From NCBI GenBank assembly GCA_031277015.1, contig JAISLZ010000070.1, forward strand, positions 1-46,045: a DNA stretch of 46,045 bases, written 5' to 3'. Positions 26,007 to 41,041 of this stretch are shown here, piece after piece. How positions within the stretch are numbered: the stretch's first letter is position 1; every line of letters starts with the position of its first letter. A program made the position numbers and the translations under genes. Below the pieces are notes generated by a model. It saw only the letters and a program-made list of their open reading frames with translations, was not told the DNA's origin and searched no databases. This stretch comes from Eubacteriales Family XIII. Incertae Sedis bacterium. GTDB lineage: Bacteria; Bacillota; Clostridia; Peptostreptococcales; Anaerovoracaceae.

Positions 26007-26189
26007 ATGAGCGAAAACAAAAAACAGATTGAATATGAATTGGCAATGCTGTATGACGTGATTTCCAAAGACGATTTACCCCGTTTGATTGAAATGATCC
26101 GGTCGACCGCGTATGGATCCGTCACGATCACGATCCAGGACAGGAAGGCGGTCCAGATCGAGAAGAACGAGAAGATAAGGATTCGTTGA
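26007..26189 (+). CDS. YezD/DUF2292-like small protein
   Basis: 60 residues from ATG 26007 (a GTG at 25983 would give 68). The C-terminal half reads YGSVTITIQDRKAVQIEKNEKIRI, matching my memory of the DUF2292 (YezD) family signature, whose members are small and often sit beside sulfur assimilation genes. It is the first gene after the promoter, and its TGA overlaps the TTG that may start the next gene, so translation of the two is probably coupled. No catalytic residues are apparent; a regulatory or ligand-binding role is possible but unproven. Confidence 0.75.
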   Translation: MSENKKQIEYELAMLYDVISKDDLPRLIEMIRSTAYGSVTITIQDRKAVQIEKNEKIRIR

Positions 26190-26191
26190 TC

Positions 26192-27085
26192 ATGCGGATT
26201 GCTGAACTCGAAGTTGGGAAGCACAGGCGGGATGTCGTAAACCAGCACCCTTGCTTTGGTGCGGTGAGGAACAAAGCCCGGATGCATCTGCCGATTTGCC
26301 CATCCTGCAATATCGAATGCGCCTTTTGCAGGCGATCGCTGAATGACGATGAAAACCGCCCCGGTGTGAGCGCGTTCATACTCCCTGTAGATGAAGTTTC
26401 AGAGTATGTGGACTATGCGCTGAAAGCATGCGACGCGCTTTCTGTCATAGGCGTTGCGGGCCCGGGTGATACACTGGTCGGCGACAATCTGTTCAAGGCG
26501 TTCCTCCGCCTCAACGAAACGCATCCCGATCTGCTGAAGTGTATGAGTACGAACGGGTTGCTGTTAAACGAGCGGGCGGATGAATTGATAGAGATCGGCA
26601 TTGATACGCTGACCGTGACGGTCAATGCGGTTGATCCCCATGTCCTCAAACAAATCGTGCCTGCAATCCACTATCACGGTGAAAGGATCGAAGGCGCACG
26701 CGGCGCCCGTATACTTATACGCAATCAGATCGCCGGGATAACGAAGATGGCGGAGGCCGGGACGACGATCAAAGTGAATACGGTGCTCGTTCCCGGAGTG
26801 AACGATTCGCATGTCGAGAACGTCGCCGAGGCGGTTAGGAAAGCCGGGGCTTCGATATTCAACATCATTCCTCTTATCCCGCAACACCTGTTGTCGAACA
26901 TCGCCGAGCCATCCTGTGGTGAAATCGAAGCAGCCCGAGCTGCGGCGGCAAAGCATATAGATGTCTTCAGGCACTGCCAGAGGTGCCGCGCGGATGCAAT
27001 CGGGATCCCCGGCTTGGAGGACCACGCCTCTACGGTGCTTGGGAAATATTACGGTAAAGTGGAGGAGGTATTTTCACATGGCTGA
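26192..27085 (+). CDS. NifB-like radical SAM cofactor maturase (MarB-like)
   Basis: 297 residues. NifB enzymes fuse two [4Fe-4S] clusters and insert carbide from SAM to make the 8Fe-core precursor of nitrogenase cofactors. Seen: HPCF (Cys21), then ARMHLPICPSCNIECAFCRR with the radical-SAM CxxxCxxC (Cys39, Cys43, Cys46), GVAGPGDTL, STNGLLL, TVTVNAVDP, VNTVLVPGVND, IIPLIP and a C-terminal CQRCRADAIG pair. It lacks the NifX-like C-terminal domain of many NifB proteins; a separate NifX-like gene is at 30082. ATG 26192 is chosen; TTG 26186 (coupled to the preceding stop and closer to AAGG) is a real alternative. It overlaps the next gene by 8 bp. Confidence 0.88.
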   Translation: MRIAELEVGKHRRDVVNQHPCFGAVRNKARMHLPICPSCNIECAFCRRSLNDDENRPGVSAFILPVDEVSEYVDYALKACDALSVIGVAGPGDTLVGDNLFKAFLRLNETHPDLLKCMSTNGLLLNERADELIEIGIDTLTVTVNAVDPHVLKQIVPAIHYHGERIEGARGARILIRNQIAGITKMAEAGTTIKVNTVLVPGVNDSHVENVAEAVRKAGASIFNIIPLIPQHLLSNIAEPSCGEIEAARAAAAKHIDVFRHCQRCRADAIGIPGLEDHASTVLGKYYGKVEEVFSHG

Positions 27086-28247
27086 ACACAATAGCTACCA
27101 ATATATAGAAACGGCATTTATCCATGGCGGTATATATGGAGACGAGCGTACCGGTGCGGTCAACACTCCGGTCTATCTGACGTCGACTTACAAGCAGGAC
27201 GCTTTAGGCCAAGACAGAGGGTATGAGTATTCCCGGACGGGGAACCCGACAAGGGAAGCGTTGGAGGCGTTGATTGCTGAGCTTGAGGGTGGACATGCGG
27301 GATTTGCGTTCGCCTCCGGCATGGCGGCATTGACGGCGATATTTTCACTGCTTTCCCATGGTGACCGTATACTCATATCCAGCAATGTGTATGGCGGGAC
27401 ATTCCGCGTCCTCGACAAAATATTCGGCCGCTTCGGATTTCGCTACACCATCGTGAACGATGATACTCCGGACGCTTTCAAAGCTGAGTTGACGGAGGAC
27501 GTCAAGGCAATCCTCATAGAGACCCCTGCCAACCCTCTGTTGACAGTCACTGACATCCGGCTCCTTGCGGAGATTGCGCACAGCAAAGACGTGCTGCTGA
27601 TTGTAGACAACACTTTCATGACTCCGTATTTCCAAAGACCTCTTGAACTTGGCGCCGACATCGTTGTGCATTCCGCTACAAAATATCTCAGCGGCCACAG
27701 CGATGTGATCGCTGGCCTCGCTGTCGTCAAGAACCATGAACTTGCGGAACAATTGCACTTCATCCAGAACGCGACCGGAGGCATACAGCAGCCGTTCGAT
27801 TCCTTCATGCTCATACGAAGCCTGAAGACACTCGGCGTCAGGATGGATCGCCACGCGGAGAACGCGGAAAAGATCGCCACATACCTGTCGGCTCACATAG
27901 CCGTAAAGAAGGTGTACTATCCCGGCCTTCATGGCGCTCCGGGGTACAGTACGCACAGTAAACAGGCGTCTTCGGGCGGCGCGATCATATCGTTCGATCT
28001 CGAAGATGAATATAGCGTCGAGAGGTTTTTTACCGGGCTGAAGCTCATTGATCTCGCGGAGAGCCTCGGCGGAGTCGAATCTCTAGTCTGCCATCCGGCG
28101 ACGATGACACATGCGTCTATTCCGAAAGAATTGCGCGAGCAAGTGGGCATTACAAATACCCTGGTCAGGCTCTCTGTCGGCATTGAGCATTCGGAGGACC
28201 TGATATTCGATCTGGATCAGGCGATCAAAGCGGCGGGAAAACAATAA
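27078..28247 (+). CDS. Cystathionine gamma-lyase/gamma-synthase family PLP enzyme (MccB/MetB-like)
   Basis: 389 residues, the length of cystathionine gamma-lyases and gamma-synthases and shorter than O-acetylhomoserine sulfhydrylases. Motifs: YEYSRTGNPTREALE, ASGMAA, VDNTFMTPYFQRPLELGADIVVHSATKYLSGHSDVIAG (PLP lysine in SATKYLSGH). ATG 27078 overlaps the NifB-like stop and has GGAGG upstream; longer starts inside the previous gene are rejected. Directly followed by a cystathionine beta-synthase-like gene, so a reverse-transsulfuration pair (cystathionine to cysteine, 2-oxobutyrate and ammonia) is the favoured reading. Gamma-synthase activity cannot be excluded by eye. Confidence 0.85.
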   Translation: MAEHNSYQYIETAFIHGGIYGDERTGAVNTPVYLTSTYKQDALGQDRGYEYSRTGNPTREALEALIAELEGGHAGFAFASGMAALTAIFSLLSHGDRILISSNVYGGTFRVLDKIFGRFGFRYTIVNDDTPDAFKAELTEDVKAILIETPANPLLTVTDIRLLAEIAHSKDVLLIVDNTFMTPYFQRPLELGADIVVHSATKYLSGHSDVIAGLAVVKNHELAEQLHFIQNATGGIQQPFDSFMLIRSLKTLGVRMDRHAENAEKIATYLSAHIAVKKVYYPGLHGAPGYSTHSKQASSGGAIISFDLEDEYSVERFFTGLKLIDLAESLGGVESLVCHPATMTHASIPKELREQVGITNTLVRLSVGIEHSEDLIFDLDQAIKAAGKQ

Positions 28248-28264: not shown

Positions 28265-29176
28265 ATGGCAGTATATGATTCGATGTTCGAGCTTGTGGGC
28301 AATACGCCTCTGGTGAGGCTTAACAATATGGGCTTTCCGGACACGCTACATGTTTTTGCAAAACTGGAATTATGGAATCCAGCAGGTAGTGTCAAAGACC
28401 GCATAGGGCTTTCGATGATCAAGGCGGCGGAGGAAGCGGGGCGTCTTGCGCCCGGCGGGACGATTATTTCGGCGACTGCCGGCAATACCGGGCTCGGCAT
28501 CGCGTTTGCAGCTTTAAAGAGCGGATACAGGATCATATTTGTGGTCCCTGACAAATTCTCGGAGGAAAAGCAGACGCTGATGCGTTCTCTCGGTGCGGAG
28601 ATCGTGAACACGAAACGGGCCGGAGGTATGCTCGAAGCTAGGGAAAAAGCGGAAGAAATACTCTCCAGGACGCCGGGGGCAATCACTCTGGAGCAGTTTA
28701 CGGATATCGCAAATCCAGACGCGCACTACCGTGGGACGGGGCCGGAGATATACCGGGATCTTACCGGAGGGGTGGATATCTTTGTAGCTGGAGCTGGTAG
28801 CGGAGGAACATTCTCTGGAACGGTCCGTTACCTCAAGGAAAAGCTCCCGAACCTTCATGCCGTACTCGCCGATCCGGAGGGTTCGATCATCGGGGGAGGC
28901 GAACACGGCGACTATGAGCTCGAAGGGATCGGCGGGGAGTTTATCGCGGATACGATGGATCTCTCGCTGGTGGATGAAGTCGTGAAAATAACGGATGACG
29001 ACGCGTTCCCCACGGCGCGGGAGCTTGCGCGGAGAGAAGGCATATTTGCCGGATCCTCATCCGGAGCCGCCGTGGCGGCGGTAAGGAAAATTGCGGAAAC
29101 GCGCAAGGAGGGCAATCTCGTAGTCGTTCTGCCGGATCGTGGGGACCGTTATTTCAGCAAGCATCTTTACGAATAG
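28265..29176 (+). CDS. Cystathionine beta-synthase / cysteine synthase family enzyme (MccA-like)
   Basis: 303 residues of the fold-type II PLP family. LWNPAGSVKDRIG holds the PLP lysine, ATAGNTGLGIAFAA the substrate loop, and GAGSGGTFSG the phosphate-binding loop. The segment LADPEGSIIGGG and then YELEGIGGEF resembles O-acetylserine-dependent cystathionine beta-synthases (MccA/YrhA) and true CBS, rather than CysK, which usually has an EP..SP pattern there. It would join homocysteine with O-acetylserine or serine to give cystathionine. No CBS regulatory domain. The gene follows 17 bp after the gamma-lyase-like gene. Confidence 0.85.
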   Translation: MAVYDSMFELVGNTPLVRLNNMGFPDTLHVFAKLELWNPAGSVKDRIGLSMIKAAEEAGRLAPGGTIISATAGNTGLGIAFAALKSGYRIIFVVPDKFSEEKQTLMRSLGAEIVNTKRAGGMLEAREKAEEILSRTPGAITLEQFTDIANPDAHYRGTGPEIYRDLTGGVDIFVAGAGSGGTFSGTVRYLKEKLPNLHAVLADPEGSIIGGGEHGDYELEGIGGEFIADTMDLSLVDEVVKITDDDAFPTARELARREGIFAGSSSGAAVAAVRKIAETRKEGNLVVVLPDRGDRYFSKHLYE

Positions 29177-29192
29177 GCGAATTAACGATTGA

Positions 29193-30071
<879 letters not shown>

Positions 30072-30081
30072 GGCTGGAAAG

Positions 30082-30438
30082 ATGAACGGCAAACATAGGG
30101 TTGCGGTGGCCACGACAGATGGGCTGACGCTCTATGAACATTTCGGGCACGCGAGCCGTTTTGGCATTTACGACATAGATGAATCGACGGTTGATTTTGT
30201 TGAGACGCGCAAAGTGGATCCTCCATGCCATGGAGGGCACCACAGCGAATCAGCTTTTGACGCGGTGATTGAACTGTTGGATGACTGCGAAGCCATTGTC
30301 GTCGGCAAAATAGGGCCGGGCGCAGCGGACTATTTGATGGAACGCGGCATACGTGTATTTGAAGCGCCCGGAGTGCTGGAAGTTGTCCTTGGTGCGATCG
30401 CCTCACGCGGCTTGCTGGATGTCGGGGTGGAACGTTAA
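30082..30438 (+). CDS. NifX/NafY-type iron-molybdenum-cofactor binding domain protein
   Basis: 118 residues of the dinitrogenase iron-molybdenum cofactor biosynthesis domain. HRVAVATTDGLTLYEHFGHASRFGIYDID is the standard start of the NifX and NifB C-terminal fold, and a His/Cys-rich loop (PPCHGGHH) follows. It likely carries or holds a cofactor precursor made by the NifB-like enzyme. ATG 30082 is 10 bp after the NifH-like stop; the earlier ATG at 30046 lies within that gene and is rejected. Its separation from NifB is notable. Confidence 0.85.
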   Translation: MNGKHRVAVATTDGLTLYEHFGHASRFGIYDIDESTVDFVETRKVDPPCHGGHHSESAFDAVIELLDDCEAIVVGKIGPGAADYLMERGIRVFEAPGVLEVVLGAIASRGLLDVGVER

Positions 30439-30463: not shown

Positions 30464-31021
30464 ATGGCAAGAGTAGGTTATAAACGATATGAGGACGCTA
30501 CGGGAGAGCTAAAGGAGGCATACGATGCATTGCTCTCAAAATCCGGTAATATCACGAACATGAAGCTCGTACTCGGAAATTCGTGGACGGTGTATGACGC
30601 GTATATAGGATGGTACCGGGTATGGGATAAGCTTGTGGAAGTCGTTGGAGAGCGGGCGGCCATCATCTTTGCACATTCGATATCCACTACGAACGGGTGT
30701 ATTCTGTGTTCGCTGTTTTTCATTCAGGACATCAAAGACCTCGGCGAGAATCCTGCCGATCTTGTCTTGGACGAAAAGGAGACACTTCTCGTGGAGCTCG
30801 GTCAGACGGCCGTCAAGAACCCGAACGGTGTCTCGGACGCCCTGATCTCGGACCTGAAAAAATATTTCAACGACGAGGAACTCGTCGTGATCGTAGGTTT
30901 TGCGGGTGAGATGATCATGTACAACGTATTCAATTCAATTCTGGATGTAGATGTCGACGATCGTCTGCTTCCGATCAAAGGCGAGTTCAAGCCTGAGACA
31001 TGGAGAGAAAAAGACAAATGA
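30464..31021 (+). CDS. Carboxymuconolactone decarboxylase/AhpD-like protein
   Basis: 185 residues, all-helical. A CxxC redox pair lies in TTNGCILCSLFFIQDI, with the surrounding HSISTTNGC context typical of the AhpD/CMD family. Members reduce peroxides by way of the CxxC and an adjacent histidine. Strong AGGAGG ribosome-binding site. Its stop overlaps the aminotransferase start (ATGA), so it is tightly within the operon. A role as thiol reductant for methanethiol or oxygen/peroxide protection of the nitrogenase-like enzyme are both guesses. Confidence 0.8.
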   Translation: MARVGYKRYEDATGELKEAYDALLSKSGNITNMKLVLGNSWTVYDAYIGWYRVWDKLVEVVGERAAIIFAHSISTTNGCILCSLFFIQDIKDLGENPADLVLDEKETLLVELGQTAVKNPNGVSDALISDLKKYFNDEELVVIVGFAGEMIMYNVFNSILDVDVDDRLLPIKGEFKPETWREKDK

Positions 31022-32412
31022 GCAGTAAGGTAATCAGTGAAGCTGATCTTGAGTCGCGGGTGGGCGCAGCCCCTTTCGGCGACAGGACAAAGGCGCTGGC
31101 CCTCAGCGCCGTGCAATTCGAGTCGCTCGGTAGCGTAGCTTGGGGGCTATTCCCCGCCGCACCGGTCATGGTACGTGGTCAGGGATCTCTGCTCTGGGAT
31201 GCGGATGGCAAGGAATACATCGACCTTCTATCCGGTTTTTCCGTGAGCAATTTCGGCAACTGCCATCCTCGCATCACGGAAGCTATATGCAAACAGGCCG
31301 GCACGCTCACCCACTATTTCGACCTGCCCCACGAAGGGCGTGTCCGCCTTGCGGAAAGGCTATGCTCCCTCGCCGGCATCCGCGGGGGAAACGCGAAAGT
31401 TTTGTTTGGTACCACCGGATCTGATGGGGTGGAGAATGCGGTGCGTGCCGCGCGGTTTTTCACGGGCAAGCCGTACATCCTCACCGCGAAGGGTGACTAT
31501 CATGGCGCCACATTCGGAACGATCGGGCTCACGAGCCGTGCGGGCATCAACGCGACGTATTCTCCCGGTGGGGCTACGGGTAATATAGGCTTTTTCGGTT
31601 TTCCTCATGAATATCGCGCGGGGCTTTCTGAATACGGCAACAGCGGTATGGAAGCTCTTGCGGAGTTGGAACGCGATTTATCGGGCGGATTCTCGCCGTA
31701 TGCCGACGCGTCGGGGAATTTGAACGTCGCGGCTATCCTTGCGGAACCGTTCCAAAGTTCTTTGGGCTACTACATCCCGCCCCGCGATTATCTGAAAGAG
31801 CTACGCCGCATCTGCGACAGGCATGGGTTGCTGCTCATCATAGACGAGGTGCAGACAGGGCTAGGACGGACGGGGAGGCTCTGGGCGTATGATCATTCAG
31901 GGATTGAGCCGGATATACTCGTGACGTCAAAGACGCTCGGCGGCGGCTTGCCTTTGTCGGCAGTGGTCGCGCGCGCGGACATACTGTCACAGTGGGTGCC
32001 GACTGCGCACATCAATACGCAAGCGGGCAATGCTGTCGCTTGCGCGGCGGCAAATACCGTACTGGATATGCTTGAAGAACCCGGCGCCCTTGATGACGTG
32101 ACCAAGAGGGGTGCGTACTTCAAGGAGGGGCTGGACCGCATCGCGAGGACGCACCCCTCGCTCGGGTACATCGATCACGAGAGCATCTATCTGGGGCTCG
32201 AGTTCGTCTCCGACCCTGTGAAAAAAACGCCTGCGTCAGAGCTCGTTTCGAGAATACGCGCGTTCGGGTTACGGGAAGGATTGCTTCTGGACCAAGGGGG
32301 CTACTACGGCAATCGTATACCTCTCATCCCCGCGCTGAACATTCCCTACGAATTGATCGACCGTACCCTCGAAACGCTGGAAGCTGTCATAGATGAAGCG
32401 GAGAGGACATAA
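31018..32412 (+). CDS. Class III aminotransferase (omega/4-aminobutyrate/acetylornithine type)
   Basis: 464 residues, PLP fold type I. Motifs: VRGQGSLLWDADGKEYIDLLSGFSVSNFGNCHPRI, TTGSDGVENAVRAAR, AEPFQSSLGYYIPP, LLIIDEVQTGLGRTG and the PLP lysine in VTSKTLGGGLPLSA. Substrates of the class are omega-amines or amino acids (GABA, ornithine, taurine, diaminobutyrate). The N-terminal 35 residues before the core are unusual. ATG 31018 overlaps the previous stop. Being inside a nitrogenase-like sulfur operon suggests an organosulfur amine or amino acid as substrate, which is inference. Confidence 0.85.
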   Translation: MSSKVISEADLESRVGAAPFGDRTKALALSAVQFESLGSVAWGLFPAAPVMVRGQGSLLWDADGKEYIDLLSGFSVSNFGNCHPRITEAICKQAGTLTHYFDLPHEGRVRLAERLCSLAGIRGGNAKVLFGTTGSDGVENAVRAARFFTGKPYILTAKGDYHGATFGTIGLTSRAGINATYSPGGATGNIGFFGFPHEYRAGLSEYGNSGMEALAELERDLSGGFSPYADASGNLNVAAILAEPFQSSLGYYIPPRDYLKELRRICDRHGLLLIIDEVQTGLGRTGRLWAYDHSGIEPDILVTSKTLGGGLPLSAVVARADILSQWVPTAHINTQAGNAVACAAANTVLDMLEEPGALDDVTKRGAYFKEGLDRIARTHPSLGYIDHESIYLGLEFVSDPVKKTPASELVSRIRAFGLREGLLLDQGGYYGNRIPLIPALNIPYELIDRTLETLEAVIDEAERT

Positions 32413-32424
32413 AGGAATTAAGTT

Positions 32425-33726
32425 ATGAGTAAATATGCGTTTGACACATTGAAAGTCAGGGCGGGCTATAATCCTTCCGATCACAGAAATGCTGTGTCCG
32501 TGCCAATCTACCAGACGACGGCCTACGAACTCGGCGATAGTTACAGGGCGGATCGGCTGTTTGCGTTTGAGGAAGATGACCCTATCTACACGCGGCTATC
32601 CAATCCAACTGTGGACGTGCTTGAGCAACGGATCACGGCCCTGCATCCCGGCGCGGCCGCCTCTATCGCGCTTGCGTCCGGCATGGCGGCCGTCACCTAT
32701 GCACTTCTCAACGCAGCGGGCAAGGGCGGCCGCATCCTGACGACCGCGCGGCTCTATGGCGGAACAGTAGACAGCTTTGAGCAGATATTTGACGAATACG
32801 GCATCGGCGTCGACATCGTCGAAAACCCGGACGATATCTCGGAATTTGAGTTGAAATTCACCGACGACACGAAGGCGGTCTTTCTTGAAACGCTTACCAA
32901 TCCTTTCGGCACGATTCCCGATCTCGAGAGAATTGCGTACATAGCGCATCAGAAGGGCGCCACGCTGATTGTGGACAATACGGTCGCGACGCCGTATCTG
33001 ATGAACCCGTTTTCTCATGAAGCGGATGTCGTCGTCTATTCGGCGACAAAGGCGCTTTCCGGTCACGGCAATGTGATTGCGGGTATAGTCGTTGAAAGCG
33101 GCAGGTTCGACTATGGCGCAGGGCGCCATCCGCAATTCACGAAGCCGCTATGGTTTCTGCGTGATTCCGAAAACAGGAAGCGTCACATCCTGGAGATTTT
33201 CCCCGACGCGCCGTTCACGGGCCGTATTCGCGCTGTCCATCTGAATTATCTCGGCGCGGCGCTCGGGCCTTTTGATGCGTACCTTGTGCTGATTGGGCTT
33301 GAAACGCTGTCCGAGCGCGTCGACAAGCAGGTGAAAAACGCCCGCCTCGTGCGCGCATTTCTGGAGAAAAATGAGCATGTCGCGTGGCTACGCCATCCTG
33401 AGGGCGATGGTAGCGCCTACGGCGCGTTACGTGAGAAATATTTTCCGAAAGGGGTGGGCTCCCTCGTGTCCTTCGGCTTCAAAGGGACGGAGGAACAGCG
33501 TCGGACCTTCCTCGCGTCGACTGAGGTATTCAGCTATCAAGCGAACATCGGGGACGCGCGGTCGCTCATCATCAACCCGGCGCAGACGACGCACGTCGAG
33601 CTGACGGAGCGCCAGTGCGAGCTTGTCGGCCTTTCGCCCGATACGGTTCGCCTGTCGGTAGGTCTCGAGGATCCGAATGATCTCATCAAAGATTTAAAGG
33701 GCGCCTTCGCCAAAGCGTTTGAATGA
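32425..33726 (+). CDS. metY: O-acetylhomoserine sulfhydrylase (O-acetylhomoserine aminocarboxypropyltransferase)
   Basis: 433 residues, the long form of the Cys/Met-metabolism PLP family. Start YAFDTLKVRAGYNPSDHRNAVSVPIYQTTAYEL is typical of MetY/Met17. IYTRLSNPTVDVLEQR, VVYSATKALSGHGNVIAG (PLP lysine) and the C-terminal TVRLSVGLEDPNDLI are intact. It combines O-acetylhomoserine with sulfide to homocysteine, or with methanethiol to methionine. A close paralogue (36739) flanks the other side of the NifDK-like genes, suggesting the enzyme captures a thiol product of the reductase. Last gene of the first operon; a promoter follows at 33767. Confidence 0.93.
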   Translation: MSKYAFDTLKVRAGYNPSDHRNAVSVPIYQTTAYELGDSYRADRLFAFEEDDPIYTRLSNPTVDVLEQRITALHPGAAASIALASGMAAVTYALLNAAGKGGRILTTARLYGGTVDSFEQIFDEYGIGVDIVENPDDISEFELKFTDDTKAVFLETLTNPFGTIPDLERIAYIAHQKGATLIVDNTVATPYLMNPFSHEADVVVYSATKALSGHGNVIAGIVVESGRFDYGAGRHPQFTKPLWFLRDSENRKRHILEIFPDAPFTGRIRAVHLNYLGAALGPFDAYLVLIGLETLSERVDKQVKNARLVRAFLEKNEHVAWLRHPEGDGSAYGALREKYFPKGVGSLVSFGFKGTEEQRRTFLASTEVFSYQANIGDARSLIINPAQTTHVELTERQCELVGLSPDTVRLSVGLEDPNDLIKDLKGAFAKAFE

Positions 33727-33766: not shown

Positions 33767-33795
33767 TTGACACTGCACGTAAGTTGTGATATAAC
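33767..33795 (+). promoter_or_regulatory. Sigma-70-type promoter of the NifDK-like operon
   Basis: Consensus TTGACA (33767-33772), 17-bp spacer ending in TGA, and TATAAC (33790-33795), also giving an extended -10. The start site is predicted about 33802. Confidence 0.75.
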
Positions 33796-33833
33796 ATACT
33801 AAACATATAAAGATAGTATAGCATTGACCGGAC

Positions 33834-33869
33834 AACCGGAGATAGACGAAATGTTTGTCTCCGGTTTTT
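33834..33869 (+). terminator. Strong terminator hairpin in the leader of the NifDK-like operon (candidate attenuator)
   Basis: AACCGGAGATAGAC pairs with GTTTGTCTCCGGTT in a 14-bp stem (two G-U pairs) around a 5-nt loop, running into TTTTT. It lies about 30 nt after the predicted start site and 30 nt before the TTG start of the NifD-like gene, so it cannot be the terminator of the previous gene alone: the promoter is upstream of it. A second CCGG at 33828 can form a competing small hairpin (CCGGACAACCGG). Transcription attenuation is inferred. Confidence 0.7.
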
Positions 33870-33899
33870 GTGTTGTGATGGAGGGATAAGGAGTCAGGG

Positions 33900-35387
33900 T
33901 TGGCAAAAGTGAATTTGGATTTGCCTGAGGTGCAGATCAGAGAATTGAGGCTCGGATCGATCACGGGTTTTCAGGGTACGGCGAAGGAGTTGGTTTCCGC
34001 CGCAAGATGCGGATTGAGGGACAAGAACCGTTCGTTCAGCCAATGCCTCGGATGTTCCACGGGAAACGCCGCGTGCATGGTCGTGTTGATACGCGATGCT
34101 GCCGTCATCAGTCACGGTCCGGTAGGGTGCTCATCTTGTTTGCATGAATTTGCCTTCACGTATCGTGTCAACGCTCCGCTACGCGATCTCGAACACCCGA
34201 CACAGCGCAAGATTTATTCTACAAATCTGGATGAAGGCGACACTGTGTACGGAGCCGGCCAGAAACTGGCGGACGCCATTCGCGAAGTCCATGAACGCGC
34301 GAATCCTAAGGCGATTTTCGTACTCACTACGTGCGCGGTAGGTATCATCGGGGACGATGTGGAGAGCGTGACGGACGAAGCCGAAGCCGAACTGGGCATC
34401 CCGGTCGCCGCCATATTCTGCGAGGGCTTCAGATCCAAAGTTTGGACGACAGGGTTTGACGCAGGGTACCACGCCATCGCTCGCAAGATCATCAAGCCGC
34501 CCCGTCAGCGCAGGAGCGATATGATCAACGTCATCAATTTCTGGGGTGGAGACATCTTCACGGAATGGTTCGAGCCGTTTGGCGCAAAGCCCAATTTCAT
34601 CACGCCGTATGCGACGGTGGATAGCCTTGCGTATGCGTCCGAGGCGGTCGCGACCATTCAGGCCTGCCCGACGCTCGGCAGCTACCTCGCGGCGGCGTTG
34701 AGTCAGGAGTTCGGAGTCCCGGAAGTGGAGACAGCTTCGCCTTACGGGATTCAGCAAACGGACAGATGGTTTCGCAAGCTGGGTGAGATACTGGGGAAGC
34801 CAGATGTTGCGGAAGATGTCATCGCCGCGAAGAAAAAGGAGTATATCCCTCAAATAGAAGCCCTGAAGAAAAAACTGTCGGGGAAAACCGCCTTTGTTAC
34901 GGCGGGGGCGGGCCACGGGCATTCGCTTCTTTCAGTATTGGCGGAGCTCGGTGTCAATGCGCGGGGTGCGGCGATATTCCACCATGATCCCCTGTACGAC
35001 AACGGGAAAGAAGAATCCGACGCCCTAGCCCAACGCGTACGCGATTACGGCGATGTTCCTAATATCAATGTGTGCAACAAGCAGGAATTTGAACTCGTCA
35101 ACCAGCTTGCGCGCACACGCCCGGATTTCATGCTTGCCCGTCACGGCGGCATGACCCTTTGGGGCGCAAAACTCGGCATCCCTTCGCTGCTCGTCGGCGA
35201 TGAACATTTCGGCATGGGATATGAGGGGATCGTGCGGTACGGGGAACGCATCCTCGAAACCATCGAGAATGACGAGTTCGTGAAGAACCTGGCAAAACAC
35301 GCGATCAATCCGTACACCAAATGGTGGCTTGCGCAGGAACCGTATGTATTCATCGAGGGGGGTGCTGAAGCATGGCGGGCATCATAG
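33900..35387 (+). CDS. NifD-like nitrogenase component alpha (MarD-like)
   Basis: 495 residues. Catalytic alpha subunit homologue. The three P-cluster cysteine positions of NifD are kept: Cys52 (LGCSTGNAAC), Cys77 (HGPVGCSSC) and Cys145 (TTCAVGIIGDDVESV). The cofactor-ligand Cys is present as Cys256 in QACPTLGSYLAAALSQEFGVP. At the position of the cofactor-ligand His (A. vinelandii His442) there is Gly (GIPSLLVGDEHFGMG); His436 three residues on could substitute. Thus a P-cluster and an 8Fe-type cofactor are likely, but not classical dinitrogenase. The TTG start has AAGGAG six bases upstream. It overlaps the NifK-like gene by 16 bp. Confidence 0.9.
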   Translation: MAKVNLDLPEVQIRELRLGSITGFQGTAKELVSAARCGLRDKNRSFSQCLGCSTGNAACMVVLIRDAAVISHGPVGCSSCLHEFAFTYRVNAPLRDLEHPTQRKIYSTNLDEGDTVYGAGQKLADAIREVHERANPKAIFVLTTCAVGIIGDDVESVTDEAEAELGIPVAAIFCEGFRSKVWTTGFDAGYHAIARKIIKPPRQRRSDMINVINFWGGDIFTEWFEPFGAKPNFITPYATVDSLAYASEAVATIQACPTLGSYLAAALSQEFGVPEVETASPYGIQQTDRWFRKLGEILGKPDVAEDVIAAKKKEYIPQIEALKKKLSGKTAFVTAGAGHGHSLLSVLAELGVNARGAAIFHHDPLYDNGKEESDALAQRVRDYGDVPNINVCNKQEFELVNQLARTRPDFMLARHGGMTLWGAKLGIPSLLVGDEHFGMGYEGIVRYGERILETIENDEFVKNLAKHAINPYTKWWLAQEPYVFIEGGAEAWRAS

Positions 35388-36709
35388 AACAGGAACGATA
35401 TACTTGCGCCATCGGGGCGCTGCAGAGCGTCGTCGCTATCCCGAAAGCCGTGCCGATCTTGCACTCGGGACCGGGTTGCGGCAATATGATCATGGGCTTT
35501 TTTGAGCGATCGACAGGCTATGCGGGCGGCAATACCAGCCCATGCACAAATTTTTCCGAAAACGAAGTCATCTTCGGTGGTGTCGAGCGTTTGAGGCAGA
35601 TCATAAAAAATACATACAAAGTTCTGGATACGGAGCTACAGGTAGTGCTCACCGGATGTACCGCTGGCATCGTCGGCGACGACGTGGAATCGCTTGTGGA
35701 CGAATTCCGTGATGAGGGAAAGCCCATCGTATCCGTGGAAACGCCGGGGTTCAAGTGCAGCAATTTCGAAGCGCACAGCCTCGTGGTGAACGCGATTATC
35801 GACCAGTACGTATCTCTTCATGAGGAGGGGCGCCCATACAGGTCCTCCAAAAATACCGTAGTCCTCCTGTCTTCCGTCCCTTACCAGGATCCGTTTTGGA
35901 AAGGCAATCTCGCCGAGTACAAACGGCTCCTGGCCGGGATGGGGCTTGATGCGGCCGTTTTGTTCGGTCCAGGCTCCGGCGGCGTGGATGAGTGGAAAAG
36001 GATCCCGGAAGCCAATTTCGTGGTACTTGTTTCGCCCTGGTACGGGGAACCTATAGCCTCGCATCTGGAAGAAAAATACGGCCAACCCTCTATCCAGTTT
36101 CCTCATATCCCGATAGGCGCCAACGAGACAGAGCGTTTTCTTAGGACTGTCCTCGAGTTCGCTGAAAAACAAGGGGCGAAGATCGACCGAATTGCCGCGG
36201 AGCGTTTCATACGGAGGGAAAGGGATGCATATTATGAGGAGATAGACAACCTTGCGACCTTCCTTCTCGAGTTTCGCTACGGGTTGCCAAACCACGCTCA
36301 TATCTTTCATGACGCCGGATATGTGATAAGCCTCTCCAAATTCCTGCTACACGAAACAGGCATAGTGCCGAGAGAGCAGTTCGTCGTTGACGGCACTCCG
36401 GAGCAGTACCATGCTGCCCTCAGGGATGAGCTCGCGAGCGCCTCGGACAAACGTGAGATCCCTCTGTACTTTGAGCCTGATGCGGGCAAGGCGCAGGATA
36501 TCTGCCGCAACCTCACGCATAGCGGGCGCGGCCTCATCATAGGAAGCGGCTGGGACAAGGAGCTCGCAAAGGAGAAAGACTACGATTTTCTTTCGGCCTC
36601 CGTGCCGTCGCCTTACCGGCTCGTGCTCACATCCCATTATGCCGGCTTCACAGGCGGTCTGCGCGTGATCGAAGACATCTACAATACCGCGCTCGCATCG
36701 TACAGATAA
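35372..36709 (+). CDS. NifK-like nitrogenase component beta (MarK-like)
   Basis: 445 residues. Partner of the NifD-like subunit. The P-cluster cysteines are present as Cys12 (RYTCAIGALQ), Cys36 (HSGPGCGNM) and Cys96 (LTGCTAGIVGDDVESL). The motif SPCTNFSENEVIFGG matches the NifK region before the third cysteine. The C-terminal ASVPSPYRLVLTSHYAGFTGGLRVIEDIYN fits the alpha-beta interface of the family. The N-terminal extension found in Mo-NifK is absent, as in many NifK-like proteins. The ATG is inside the end of the preceding gene, indicating coupled, stoichiometric translation. Confidence 0.9.
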   Translation: MAGIIEQERYTCAIGALQSVVAIPKAVPILHSGPGCGNMIMGFFERSTGYAGGNTSPCTNFSENEVIFGGVERLRQIIKNTYKVLDTELQVVLTGCTAGIVGDDVESLVDEFRDEGKPIVSVETPGFKCSNFEAHSLVVNAIIDQYVSLHEEGRPYRSSKNTVVLLSSVPYQDPFWKGNLAEYKRLLAGMGLDAAVLFGPGSGGVDEWKRIPEANFVVLVSPWYGEPIASHLEEKYGQPSIQFPHIPIGANETERFLRTVLEFAEKQGAKIDRIAAERFIRRERDAYYEEIDNLATFLLEFRYGLPNHAHIFHDAGYVISLSKFLLHETGIVPREQFVVDGTPEQYHAALRDELASASDKREIPLYFEPDAGKAQDICRNLTHSGRGLIIGSGWDKELAKEKDYDFLSASVPSPYRLVLTSHYAGFTGGLRVIEDIYNTALASYR

Positions 36710-36738
36710 TCAAGAAGTTTTGAAAAGAGGACATGATT

Positions 36739-38067
36739 ATGGCAGAGAAACAATACGGGTTTGATACGCGCAAAGTGCGCGCCGGATACAATTCGGCGGA
36801 ACATAACTACGCGATATCGCCGCCCATATATCAGACGACGGCATACGATTTTAAAAGCGTGGAATACGCGAAACAGCTTTTCGCGTTTGAAACCGTCGGC
36901 AATCTATATACGCGCGTAGGGAATCCGACAGTCGGGGTCTTGGAGGCCCGTATGGCCGAGCTCGATGGGGCCGCCGCGGCTATCGCGCTAGGTAGCGGTA
37001 TGGCGGCGATCAGCTACACCCTGCTGAACCTCGCCGAAGGAGGAGGCCGCATTCTCGTCTCCCCGTACCTGTACGGAGGCAGCGCTGACAGCTTCAAGAA
37101 GCTGTACCCAAAATTCGGCATACAGATCGACTACGCGAAACATATCGACGATCCGGCTAAGCTCGAAGGGGAGATCGCACCAGACACAAAAGCGATCTTT
37201 ATCGAGAGCATCAGCAATCCGTCCGCCGTACTGCTCGACATCCGCGCCATAGCGGACGTAGCACATCGGAACGGCATCCCTCTCGTCGTCGACAACACCG
37301 TCGCAACACCATATCTGCTGCGCCCCATAGAGCATGGCGCCGACATCGTTGTCTACTCGGCGACAAAGGGACTGAATGGGCATGGCAACATCATCGCCGG
37401 GCTTATACTTGAGAGCGGCAAATTCGATTGGGCAAACGGGAGATATCCGCACTTCGCAGAAAAGTACTATACGCTGCGCGACCACAGCACAGACGAGCAT
37501 CGAAGCTATCTCGAAGCTTTCCCCGACGCGCCTTTCACTACCAGGATACGCTTCAATTATTTGAACTATTTCGGCGCGGCGCTTGGTCCGTTCGACGCCT
37601 ATCTCGCCCTCGTCGGACTGGAAACTTTGTCTGAGCGATTATCAAAACAGGTGGAAAATGCTAGGATAATCGCCGAATGGCTCAGACGTCGGACTGACTA
37701 TGTGGAATGGGTCAGATATCCGGAATTGTCGGACAGTCCCTACAGGTCGCTTGCGGAACAATATTTTCCGAATGGAGCGGGCGGCATACTAGCCTTTGGT
37801 TTCCGTGGCGATGAAGTCCAGCGAGAATATTTTCTCGACGCGGTGGAATTGATCAATTACCACGTCAACATAGGTGACGCGCGCACCCTCATCGTTGATT
37901 CGCCGAACAACACGCACGGGGAACTGGAGCCATACGAAAAAGAGCGTGCCGATGTCCCGCCGAACCTGATACGCATCTCTGCGGGGCTCGAAGATCCAAA
38001 TGACCTTATTGCGGATCTGGATCAGGCTTTTCTTGCATCGGAACGAAGCAAACTGATCGCGATATAA
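36739..38067 (+). CDS. metY: O-acetylhomoserine sulfhydrylase, second copy
   Basis: 442 residues, paralogous to the protein from 32425: YGFDTRKVRAGYNSAEHNYAISPPIYQTTAYDF, LYTRVGNPTVGVLEAR, VVYSATKGLNGHGNIIAG (PLP lysine) and LIRISAGLEDPNDLI. The many differences between the copies suggest distinct thiol specificity, for example methanethiol versus sulfide, but this cannot be read directly. ATG 36739 has AGAGG eight bases upstream; ATG 36733 is too close to it. It is cotranscribed with the NifDK-like genes (29-bp gap) and with the importer. Confidence 0.93.
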   Translation: MAEKQYGFDTRKVRAGYNSAEHNYAISPPIYQTTAYDFKSVEYAKQLFAFETVGNLYTRVGNPTVGVLEARMAELDGAAAAIALGSGMAAISYTLLNLAEGGGRILVSPYLYGGSADSFKKLYPKFGIQIDYAKHIDDPAKLEGEIAPDTKAIFIESISNPSAVLLDIRAIADVAHRNGIPLVVDNTVATPYLLRPIEHGADIVVYSATKGLNGHGNIIAGLILESGKFDWANGRYPHFAEKYYTLRDHSTDEHRSYLEAFPDAPFTTRIRFNYLNYFGAALGPFDAYLALVGLETLSERLSKQVENARIIAEWLRRRTDYVEWVRYPELSDSPYRSLAEQYFPNGAGGILAFGFRGDEVQREYFLDAVELINYHVNIGDARTLIVDSPNNTHGELEPYEKERADVPPNLIRISAGLEDPNDLIADLDQAFLASERSKLIAI

Positions 38068-38109: not shown

Positions 38110-39237
38110 ATGAAAAAGAAACATCTATTGACTATCATCTTGGCACTTCTGATCGCCGCTTCCGGCATCCTGCTTGCGGCCTGCAGTGGGCAAGGTGAAA
38201 GCGGTGAGGCCCACGAGGAACCATCGGATTCCGCCTCACAGGACGCCACCGAGCCCGAAAACGCGGATTCAGACAGCGCGGGTGTGGAAGCAACCGGCGA
38301 GTTCAAATACGGCAAGATCGATATCCCAGGTAAGGACGGGGCACTTTGTGGCGCGCCTATCTACATCGCTTACGAAAAAGGGTTCTTCGCAGAGGAAGGT
38401 TTCGACGTGACGCTGATCTCGGCCGACGCGGAGACGCGCAAGATCGGACTGAACAACGGGACGATACCTATGGTCAATGGGGACTTCCAGTTCTTCCCTT
38501 CCATTGAGGAAGGCGTGAAGGTCAGCGTCGTGGACGGCCTGCATAACGGATGCATCAAGTTTATCGTTCCCAAAGGGTCGCCTATCAAAACAGCGGATGA
38601 CCTGAAAGGCAAAAAGATCGCCGTAGACGAAATCGGAGGTACCCCGCATCAGGTCGCGAGCGTTTGGGTCGAAAAGGCCGGCATATCGGCGAAACCGGAA
38701 GACGGCGAAGTCGAGTTCCTAGTATTCAGCGACGGCAATCTCGAAATCGAAGCGTTGCGCAACGGCGACGTTGACGTCGCGGCGCTGTGGGATCCACTTG
38801 GATCGGTCCACACCGCCGGCGACAACCCCGAATTTGAGGTCCTCTTTGACCTGTCCACCGACCCGACCTTTGCCGGCAAATACTGCTGCTTCCTCTATGC
38901 TTCAAACAAGATAATCGAGGAAGATCCCGAGAAAGTTGCGGCTCTGCTAAGGGCCTACCACAAAGCGCAGGAATGGATTGCGGCCAACCCGGCGGAAGCG
39001 GTGAGCATCATCTCTGACAAGAAGTATTCGGCGATCGAGGACAAACCGCTGGCAGAGGAACTGGTCAAAAGCTATGCGTACCCGTCTTTGTCGGAGCATG
39101 AATCAGGTGGTACGCATGTCAAGGAAGACGTTGAATATTTCGCGACCGAACTGTACAACATCGGATATCTGAAAACAGAGCCGCAGAAGTTTTTGGATGA
39201 AGCCTATTATGAAGTAGATTTGAACCTTGGCATGTGA
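38110..39237 (+). CDS. SsuA/TauA/NMT1-type ABC transporter substrate-binding lipoprotein
   Basis: 375 residues. Lipobox LLAAC (Cys25) after a hydrophobic signal; an Asp/Glu/Ser linker to about residue 60; then the NMT1/THI5-like fold with GAPIYIAYEKGFFAEEGFDVTLI, DLKGKKIAVDEIGGTPHQVA and ALRNGDVDVAALWDP. This family binds sulfonates, nitrate, thiamine precursors and similar. With the sulfur genes upstream, an organosulfur ligand is the favoured substrate. The stop overlaps the permease start (TGATG). Confidence 0.88.
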   Translation: MKKKHLLTIILALLIAASGILLAACSGQGESGEAHEEPSDSASQDATEPENADSDSAGVEATGEFKYGKIDIPGKDGALCGAPIYIAYEKGFFAEEGFDVTLISADAETRKIGLNNGTIPMVNGDFQFFPSIEEGVKVSVVDGLHNGCIKFIVPKGSPIKTADDLKGKKIAVDEIGGTPHQVASVWVEKAGISAKPEDGEVEFLVFSDGNLEIEALRNGDVDVAALWDPLGSVHTAGDNPEFEVLFDLSTDPTFAGKYCCFLYASNKIIEEDPEKVAALLRAYHKAQEWIAANPAEAVSIISDKKYSAIEDKPLAEELVKSYAYPSLSEHESGGTHVKEDVEYFATELYNIGYLKTEPQKFLDEAYYEVDLNLGM

Positions 39238-40259
39238 TGGAAAAGCATTCTTCCTCATTATTGGTGACGAAGGGCGGCAGGTATATCCTGCTGTCCTTCG
39301 TCACGATCCTTGGATTCACGATTGCGATTCTCGCGAATCGGCTATTCCCGCAGATTGCGGATGTCGTGATAGAGCCTTATCCGGTAGGCAAGCTCTTTGT
39401 TATTGATATCAACGAGCTATACAATCTCGTGCTTCTCGGATTGATTCTGCTATATGTCGTACAGGCCGTTTACTCATACCCGGACGAAGACCGGCGCAGA
39501 ATGTTCCTGTCACGCGCCCCGTTCCGGTTTGCTGCCGGCGCTGTACTCGCTGTATGGGATGTGCTGGGGACCAAGCTGTTGCTGCTTCCTCAGCCGTTTT
39601 TTCCCGGCCCGGCCCGGATACTCGAGGCGTTCCTCGCGGAAGGCGACTACGTCCTTGAGAACACGCTTTATTCCCTCAGGCTCTTTGCCTCGGGCTTCTT
39701 CCTCGGAGTGGCGGCCGGCGTCGGTACGGGCATACTGATCGGCTGGTTCCCCAAAATATATTACTGGGTATATCCAGTGCTCAAAATCACCGGCGTCATT
39801 CCCGCGGTGGCGTGGATGCCGTTCGCCTTGACCCTGCTTCCGACGCCGTTCGCGGCGGCCACATTTCTGATCGTCATCTGCGCGTGGTTCCCTATAGCCT
39901 CCACCACGGCGCAAGGCATAGCGAGCACGCCCAAGGTATTGTTTGAGGCCGCGAGGACGCTTGGCGCCAAGACCTCGTTCCTGATGTTCCGCGTGGCTAT
40001 CCCTCACGCGATGCCTCAGATTTTTACAGGCATTTCTATCGCAAACGCCTTTGCGTTCACCACTCTGGTCATGGCCGAGATGATGGGCCAGCCGGGAGGC
40101 CTCGGCTACTACATCAACGCATCCAAAGTCTGGTCCGCGTACTACAAGGTCCTCGCCGCAATAGTGGTGATGGCTATCCTGTTTTCGCTCATACTCTGGG
40201 TGGTCGGATTGATCCAGAGCAGGGTCTTGCGTTGGCAAAGGGGGTTGGTCAAACAGTGA
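39237..40259 (+). CDS. SsuC/TauC-type ABC transporter permease
   Basis: 340 residues with about seven helices. The first 85 residues (two helices, LSFVTILGFTIAILANRLF and NLVLLGLILLYVVQAVY) form an N-terminal extension not seen in standard SsuC. The core has LYSLRLFASGFFLGVAAGVGTGILIGW and the EAA-type loop FEAARTLGAKTSFLMFRVAIPHAMPQIFTGI. ATG 39237 overlaps the previous stop as TGATG; GTG 39234 would add one residue. Confidence 0.87.
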   Translation: MEKHSSSLLVTKGGRYILLSFVTILGFTIAILANRLFPQIADVVIEPYPVGKLFVIDINELYNLVLLGLILLYVVQAVYSYPDEDRRRMFLSRAPFRFAAGAVLAVWDVLGTKLLLLPQPFFPGPARILEAFLAEGDYVLENTLYSLRLFASGFFLGVAAGVGTGILIGWFPKIYYWVYPVLKITGVIPAVAWMPFALTLLPTPFAAATFLIVICAWFPIASTTAQGIASTPKVLFEAARTLGAKTSFLMFRVAIPHAMPQIFTGISIANAFAFTTLVMAEMMGQPGGLGYYINASKVWSAYYKVLAAIVVMAILFSLILWVVGLIQSRVLRWQRGLVKQ

Positions 40260-41041
40260 ATACCAAAACGGTTTTGGAGATAAAAAACGTGAACCGTGTC
40301 TATACGGACGCAAACGAAAGCACGATTGAGGCGCTCAAGGGAGTCAGTCTGGATGTAGCTGAAGGTGAGTTCCTCGCCATCATAGGTGAGTCCGGATGCG
40401 GCAAGACGACGCTTCTGCGCCTGATTGCGGGACTTGATGATCCGGATGCGGGAGAAATCAGGCTTTCAGGAGAGCGCATCACCGGCACAGACCCGGGCAG
40501 AGGCTATGTTTTCCAGCAAAACAGCCTGTTCCCCTGGATGACGGTTGAAAAGAACATCGCGTCCGGGCTTATCGCGCGTGGCGTCTATGATCGGGAAAAG
40601 CAGGAGGTTCCGGAGTACATCAGGCTCGTAGGGCTGGACGGGTTTGAGCAGTCGTACCCCCACCAGATATCCGGCGGCATGGCTCAGCGCGTAGCGATCG
40701 TGCGTGCGCTGATCAACAAGCCCAAGGTGTTGCTGCTTGACGAACCGCTCGGGGCGCTGGACGCCTTTACGCGCGCGGACTTGCAGGACAAGCTGCTCGA
40801 ACTGTGGCAGAAAGAACGCGCGACTATGATACTCGTGACGCATGATGTGGACGAGGCGATCTATCTCGCCGACCGCATAGTCATCATGACCCCCAGGCCG
40901 GGTAAGATCAGCGAGATCATCCCTGTCAACCTCGGCAGACCGCGCGATCGCGGCACGGTGGATTTCCTCGATTTACGGCGGATCATTCTCGGAAAGCTGC
41001 ATCTCGCAAACGCACGCCCGGAACCGGAGTATGTGCTGTGA
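40256..41041 (+). CDS. SsuB/TauB-type ABC transporter ATP-binding protein
   Basis: 261 residues. Walker A GESGCGKTT, Q-loop YVFQQNSLFPWMTVEKN (the LFPW motif is typical of nitrate/sulfonate/taurine importers), signature ISGGMAQRVAI, Walker B VLLLDEPLGALDAFTR and VTHDVDEAI. The GTG 40256 start overlaps the permease stop as GTGA; TTG 40232 would add eight residues. Last gene of the second operon and convergent with the GntR gene. Confidence 0.88.
   Translation: MNTKTVLEIKNVNRVYTDANESTIEALKGVSLDVAEGEFLAIIGESGCGKTTLLRLIAGLDDPDAGEIRLSGERITGTDPGRGYVFQQNSLFPWMTVEKNIASGLIARGVYDREKQEVPEYIRLVGLDGFEQSYPHQISGGMAQRVAIVRALINKPKVLLLDEPLGALDAFTRADLQDKLLELWQKERATMILVTHDVDEAIYLADRIVIMTPRPGKISEIIPVNLGRPRDRGTVDFLDLRRIILGKLHLANARPEPEYVL

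Follow-up and report, generated by a model that had tools for sequence, protein, structure and literature searches.

The closest described system is the methylthio-alkane reductase MarHDK of R. rubrum, with its partner MarB (9fmg, 9d9u). Cryo-EM of MarDK assigned the P-cluster ligands to MarD Cys66, Cys91 and Cys158 and MarK Cys32, Cys56 and Cys121; the [Fe8S9C] cluster of MarD is bound by Cys270 and His429, the latter on a MarD-specific loop (Loop I) beside Arg428 (PMC12552129). The Loop I Arg-His pair was suggested to be exclusive to methylthio-alkane reductases. MarD Gln74 and His194 line the active site, with His194 surrounding the S2B edge of the cluster (PMC12552129). N2 can be reduced by an L-cluster bound to NifEN or NifB (PMC13245594). 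NfaDK of the termite-gut bacterium Endomicrobium proavitum (Group IV-A) was reported as a functional nitrogenase with 15N2 incorporation and is described as possessing the ligands needed to reduce N2 (PMC9147875, PMC11257099). E. proavitum has since been cited repeatedly as an exception, a Group IV enzyme that fixes nitrogen without NifEN, and termite-gut Group IV homologs have been interpreted in its light.

We analysed a stretch of 46,045 nucleotides (the window) from an Eubacteriales Family XIII. Incertae Sedis bacterium; all features described below lie on its forward (+) strand. Two genes encode a nitrogenase-like pair. The D subunit (33900..35387), a catalytic NifD/MarD homolog of the Nfa/Group IV-A clade, was assigned by ORF, Pfam match, MarD alignment, tree and fold match, and the K subunit (35372..36709), a NifK/MarK homolog, by ORF, Pfam match and MarK alignment. 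The D ORF encodes 495 aa from a TTG start; the K ORF (445 aa) overlaps it. Both proteins matched Pfam Oxidored_nitro, and neither reached the NCBIfam cut-offs for NifD, VnfD, AnfD or NifK. R. rubrum MarD and MarK were the nearest solved proteins by sequence, well above chance expectation (E 1.5e-124 for D, 3.2e-106 for K; D identity about 41-42%). D as modelled by AlphaFold2 (from 47 sequences; mean pLDDT 88) superimposed on 9fmg_A with Z 50.6 and rmsd 1.4 A over 466 residues, whereas the modelled match to Mo-nitrogenase alpha chains (NifD) gave Z of only about 29-30. The nearest relative of the D protein comes from the MAG 'Clostridiales Family XIII bacterium'.

Alignment, conservation and codons identified D Cys52 (34053..34055), Cys77 (34128..34130) and Cys145 (34332..34334), equivalent to MarD Cys66, Cys91 and Cys158, and K Cys12 (35405..35407), Cys36 (35477..35479) and Cys96 (35657..35659), equivalent to MarK Cys32, Cys56 and Cys121, as predicted P-cluster ligands. 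D Cys256 (34665..34667), equivalent to MarD Cys270, is the predicted cofactor Fe1 ligand. An initial annotation of this DNA had claimed that all six P-cluster cysteines and the cofactor cysteine are kept, and the checked codons and the alignment with the solved MarDK ligands bear this out. Equivalents of Cys52, Cys77, Cys145 and Cys256 were aligned in 92/92 clade rows, a set that includes some genes fetched twice. By alignment to solved MarDK, the six cysteines are predicted to lie at the D-K interface, and D/K very probably carries large nitrogenase-type iron-sulfur clusters.

The same annotation had read the NifD His442 position as Gly, with His436 three residues on, and had predicted a P-cluster plus a differently held cofactor. 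Codons and alignment agree that the His442 position is Gly433 (Gly433 to His436, 35196..35207; alignment, conservation, codons); the column is Gly in 91 of the 92 clade rows and Glu in one, a D row from an Endomicrobiaceae-family genome (L152). The Mar-type Cys set, the NifB of the operon and the Gly at 442 favour a P-cluster with a differently held cofactor, but the choice of His436 as displaced ligand did not stand. Overlooked in that reading was His415, which follows Arg414 in the loop that bears the real cofactor histidine of MarD. The pair Arg414-His415 (35139..35144; alignment, conservation, PMC12552129) corresponds to MarD Arg428-His429, and His415 is the predicted Fe8 ligand. Arg414 has an equivalent in 92/92 clade rows and His415 in 91/92, the exception having Pro (locus L043, a single MAG contig).

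That His436 rather than His415 is the cofactor histidine is extremely unlikely. His436 lies three residues past the NifD-442 position and is kept in 90 of the 92 rows (Gln in two); however, its GDEH motif is also present in solved MarD, and there the ligand is His429, which aligns with His415 (PMC12552129). Among 14 relatives no more than about 60% identical, Loop I Arg-His is found in 14/14 and His436 in 4/14, so it is lost in ten. His436 was ruled out as ligand on the MarD structure and this conservation. Because the window has MarD's Loop I pair, the holding of its cofactor is known chemistry: the differently held cofactor, with His415 as predicted ligand, is real on the sequence evidence but was already described for MarDK in 2025 (PMC12552129). 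Loop I Arg-His is also present in several clades that share only 35-44% identity with window D (L184, L188-L191, L100-L102) and thus is not exclusive to Mar enzymes.

The positions around the cluster set the window apart from Mar. D Met60 (34077..34079; alignment, conservation, codon) occupies the position of MarD Gln74, and Val181-Trp182 (34440..34445; alignment, conservation, codons) that of His194-Trp195. The Trp is kept, and equivalents of Trp182, Phe186 and His361 (MarD Trp195, Phe199 and His375) occur in 92/92 clade rows. All 13 distinct MarD-type sequences have Gln74 and His194, whereas the window clade has Met, Thr, Val or Ala at the former position and Val, Met or Ile at the latter. 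Cluster binding is thus fully conserved and the substrate side different, and the substrate may be something other than a methylthio compound. Gln74 plus His194 is weakened as a double signature for Mar, since relatives at about 50-60% identity (L180, L182, L183, L186, L173) have Gln74 with Val or Ile at position 194; only His194 sets Mar apart. Equivalents of NifD Val70, Gln191 and His195 are absent, Cys59/Met60, Trp182 and Phe186 standing in their place under the published MarD-NifD correspondence (PMC12552129).

In the tree, window D fell outside the R. rubrum MarD clade, in a clade of 32 rows that includes E. proavitum (support 100/99) and is sister to the Mar clade (100/100); the two were joined at 99/91. 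As placed by this tree, the enzyme is a member of the Nfa/Group IV-A clade, sister to MarDK and not MarDK itself. Clade members belong to Bacillota, Actinomycetota, Spirochaetota, Elusimicrobiota and Synergistota. An Endomicrobiaceae-family genome has two tandem clade D genes with one K (L152:9541-13771).

The window's genome (1.98 Mb, 87% complete) encodes six PF00148 proteins, as three D/K pairs. The pair on contig C59 (L008:5068-13142) is of the MarDK type and is accompanied by separate NifH and ABC transporter genes; its D shares 54% identity with R. rubrum MarD, including Gln74 and His194. The third pair, on contig C42 (L007:4270-8195), belongs to another deep family and has a cysK-like gene between D and K. 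This pair has all P-cluster and cofactor Cys with Loop I Ser-His, not Arg-His; relatives occur in L047, L053 and L104. One genome thus holds a Mar-type, an Nfa-type and a third nitrogenase-like system. Alignment and tree revealed no NifDK or NifEN among the D/K pairs of this genome and of E. proavitum.

E. proavitum has only two PF00148 proteins, its D/K pair. Its D is 67% identical to window D and lies within the window clade; alignment showed Gly at NifD-442, Trp and Phe at the Gln191 and His195 positions, and the Mar-type Arg-His, so that the two enzymes share a ligand set. The cluster order is metY-ssuA-ssuC-ssuB-D-K-nifX-mccB-cysK-nifB-nifX-nifH, a sulfur-gene neighbourhood like that of the window, although the two NifH proteins share just 48% identity. 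Extending the reading to E. proavitum, we predict that its 'Group IV nitrogenase', named and cited as N2-fixing, is this same sulfur reductase. Cofactor binding of the MarDK type and the name Nfa for the clade were known already; the joining of both through the clade placement is new. In the openly accessible literature searched, no paper was found that ascribes the Mar ligands and a sulfur operon to the Group IV-A 'nitrogenase'.

The window's gene order is nifB, mccB-like, cysK-like, nifH, nifX-like, a gene for a 185-aa protein, class III aminotransferase, metY, D, K, metY, ssuA, permease and ATPase. Family scans and cysteine motifs identified a NifB-like radical SAM protein without NifX domain (26186..27085), putatively for [Fe8S9C] synthesis; it matched solved NifB with E 6e-80 and has the cysteine motifs. 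Family scans also assigned a cystathionine gamma-lyase/synthase family protein (MccB/MetB-like, 26961..28247), a cysteine/cystathionine synthase family protein (CysK/MccA-like, 28265..29176), a NifH/MarH-like reductase component (29211..30071), a NifX-like small cofactor-binding protein (30046..30438) and two O-acetylhomoserine sulfhydrylase family MetY copies (32425..33726 and 36733..38067). Downstream, an SsuA-like (NMT1) substrate-binding protein (38110..39237) was assigned by search and conserved linkage, and an SsuC-like ABC transporter permease (39234..40259) and SsuB-like ATPase (40232..41041) by sequence reading and conserved linkage. The 185-aa protein, without Pfam or NCBIfam match, and the class III aminotransferase/racemase-like protein lie at 30464-32412; the nearest solved proteins to the latter are GABA aminotransferase and amino-acid racemases. 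Neither gene was found in the other clade loci.

MetY, MccB, CysK or SsuA was found near D at 33/33 named clade loci whose flanks reach 8 kb or more on each side, versus 0/14 nif clusters of the same class. Many of the 33 loci are from Ruminococcus and are therefore not independent; the clade nonetheless spans five phyla. Each of nine carrier genomes has a stronger-scoring MetY elsewhere, and in 8/9 a divergent copy is on the cluster contig. Sulfite reductase was not found in 8/9 carrier genomes, including the window's genome and E. proavitum. We dropped this absence as support for a sulfur role because three-quarters of the class genomes also lack the enzyme (220/291) and some carriers have it. 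In a NifV search the cut-off was passed by no genome, nor by any control.

These findings indicate, with a probability of about 0.74, that D/K is a Mar-type C-S bond reductase for sulfur acquisition in the Nfa/Group IV-A clade. This reading rests on MarDK being closest by sequence and fold, the Mar ligand set, the tree and the sulfur operon. Comparison establishes the fold and ligand set, the partners NifB and NifH, and also the clade and neighbourhood. We infer that electrons would pass from the NifH-like protein to the P-cluster at the D-K interface and on to an [Fe8S9C] cluster in D, bound by Cys256 and His415. The operon NifB would make this cluster without requiring NifEN. The linked ABC transporter would import an organosulfur compound, and D/K would reductively cleave its C-S bond. 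The flanking MetY enzymes would make methionine from O-acetylhomoserine and the released thiol, most likely methanethiol, with MccB/CysK handing sulfur on to cysteine. SsuABC-type importers usually carry charged compounds, and Mar substrates are volatile. The transporter suggests that the substrate is a charged organosulfur compound, and its poor match to volatile Mar-type substrates counts against the sulfur reading. The two changed active-site positions and the capacity of a protein-bound L-cluster to reduce N2 also speak against it, but the main counter-evidence is the 15N2 incorporation reported for E. proavitum, with D/K as its only nif-like genes.

Several other functions were weighed. 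That the enzyme is simply a methylthio-alkane reductase acting on the substrates of R. rubrum MarDK is possible but doubtful. No cluster ligand is lost, the Trp, Phe and His beside them are retained, NifB, NifH and MetY are linked, and NifEN is lacking, as in MarHDK/MarB; however, window D is only 41% identical to MarD and falls in a different clade, the same genome has a copy nearer to MarD (54%), the whole core clade departs from Mar at Gln74 (Met/Thr) and His194 (Val/Ile/Met), and the locus has linked MccB/CysK and a dedicated SsuABC-type transporter. That transporter would suit a sulfonate reductase releasing sulfite, for which IsrHDK, acting on isethionate, is the precedent (PMC11423573). 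IsrBHDK is likewise a nitrogenase-like sulfur enzyme with an SsuABC transporter and a radical SAM partner, but IsrD has one of the three D-side P-cluster Cys and lacks the other two and the cofactor Cys (PMC11423573), whereas window D has all. An isethionate reductase is ruled out by these four D-side cysteines. No sulfite reductase was detected in the window's genome (87% complete) or E. proavitum, so that sulfite would not feed MetY, and sulfonate reduction in general appears very unlikely.

A true minimal nitrogenase of Group IV-A, in which the Loop I His holds an [Fe8S9C] cluster that reduces N2 independently of NifEN, Mo and homocitrate, would account for the 15N2 incorporation reported for E. 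proavitum (PMC9147875, PMC11257099), where D/K are the only PF00148 proteins, and would agree with the ability of L-cluster proteins to reduce N2 (PMC13245594). The window shares the fold, P-cluster cysteines and cofactor cysteine of Mo-nitrogenase NifDK. However, equivalents of NifD Val70, Gln191, His195 and His442 are absent, NifEN is lacking, and a sulfur operon replaces the nif operon, at 33/33 loci and in E. proavitum itself; moreover, MarDK with the same cluster and ligands is inactive on N2 (PMC12552129). We consider a minimal nitrogenase unlikely. A new type of nitrogenase in gut bacteria, working without His442, Gln191 and His195 and perhaps alongside a sulfur role, is distinctly improbable as well. 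If the 15N2 result holds, the enzyme is a minimal L-cluster nitrogenase.

The clade to which the E. proavitum enzyme belongs combines Mar-type cluster binding with a sulfur-acquisition operon in the five phyla seen here. Should D/K prove to be a C-S reductase, it would be wrong to count Group IV-A genes as nitrogen fixation, and many gut anaerobes would possess a route to methanethiol and methionine that has gone unrecognised.

Upstream of D (33767-33899), a promoter-like pair TTGACA-17-TATAAC is followed by a strong terminator-like hairpin directly before the D start (33834-33866, 15 pairs, T-run). An Rfam riboswitch search for sulfur or nitrogen control gave no match in the window and none in 13/14 related loci; the single match was a T-box in L049. 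The hairpin before D is possibly an attenuator. A similar ACCGGA...CCGGTTTTTT hairpin is also present 5′ of D in locus L009.
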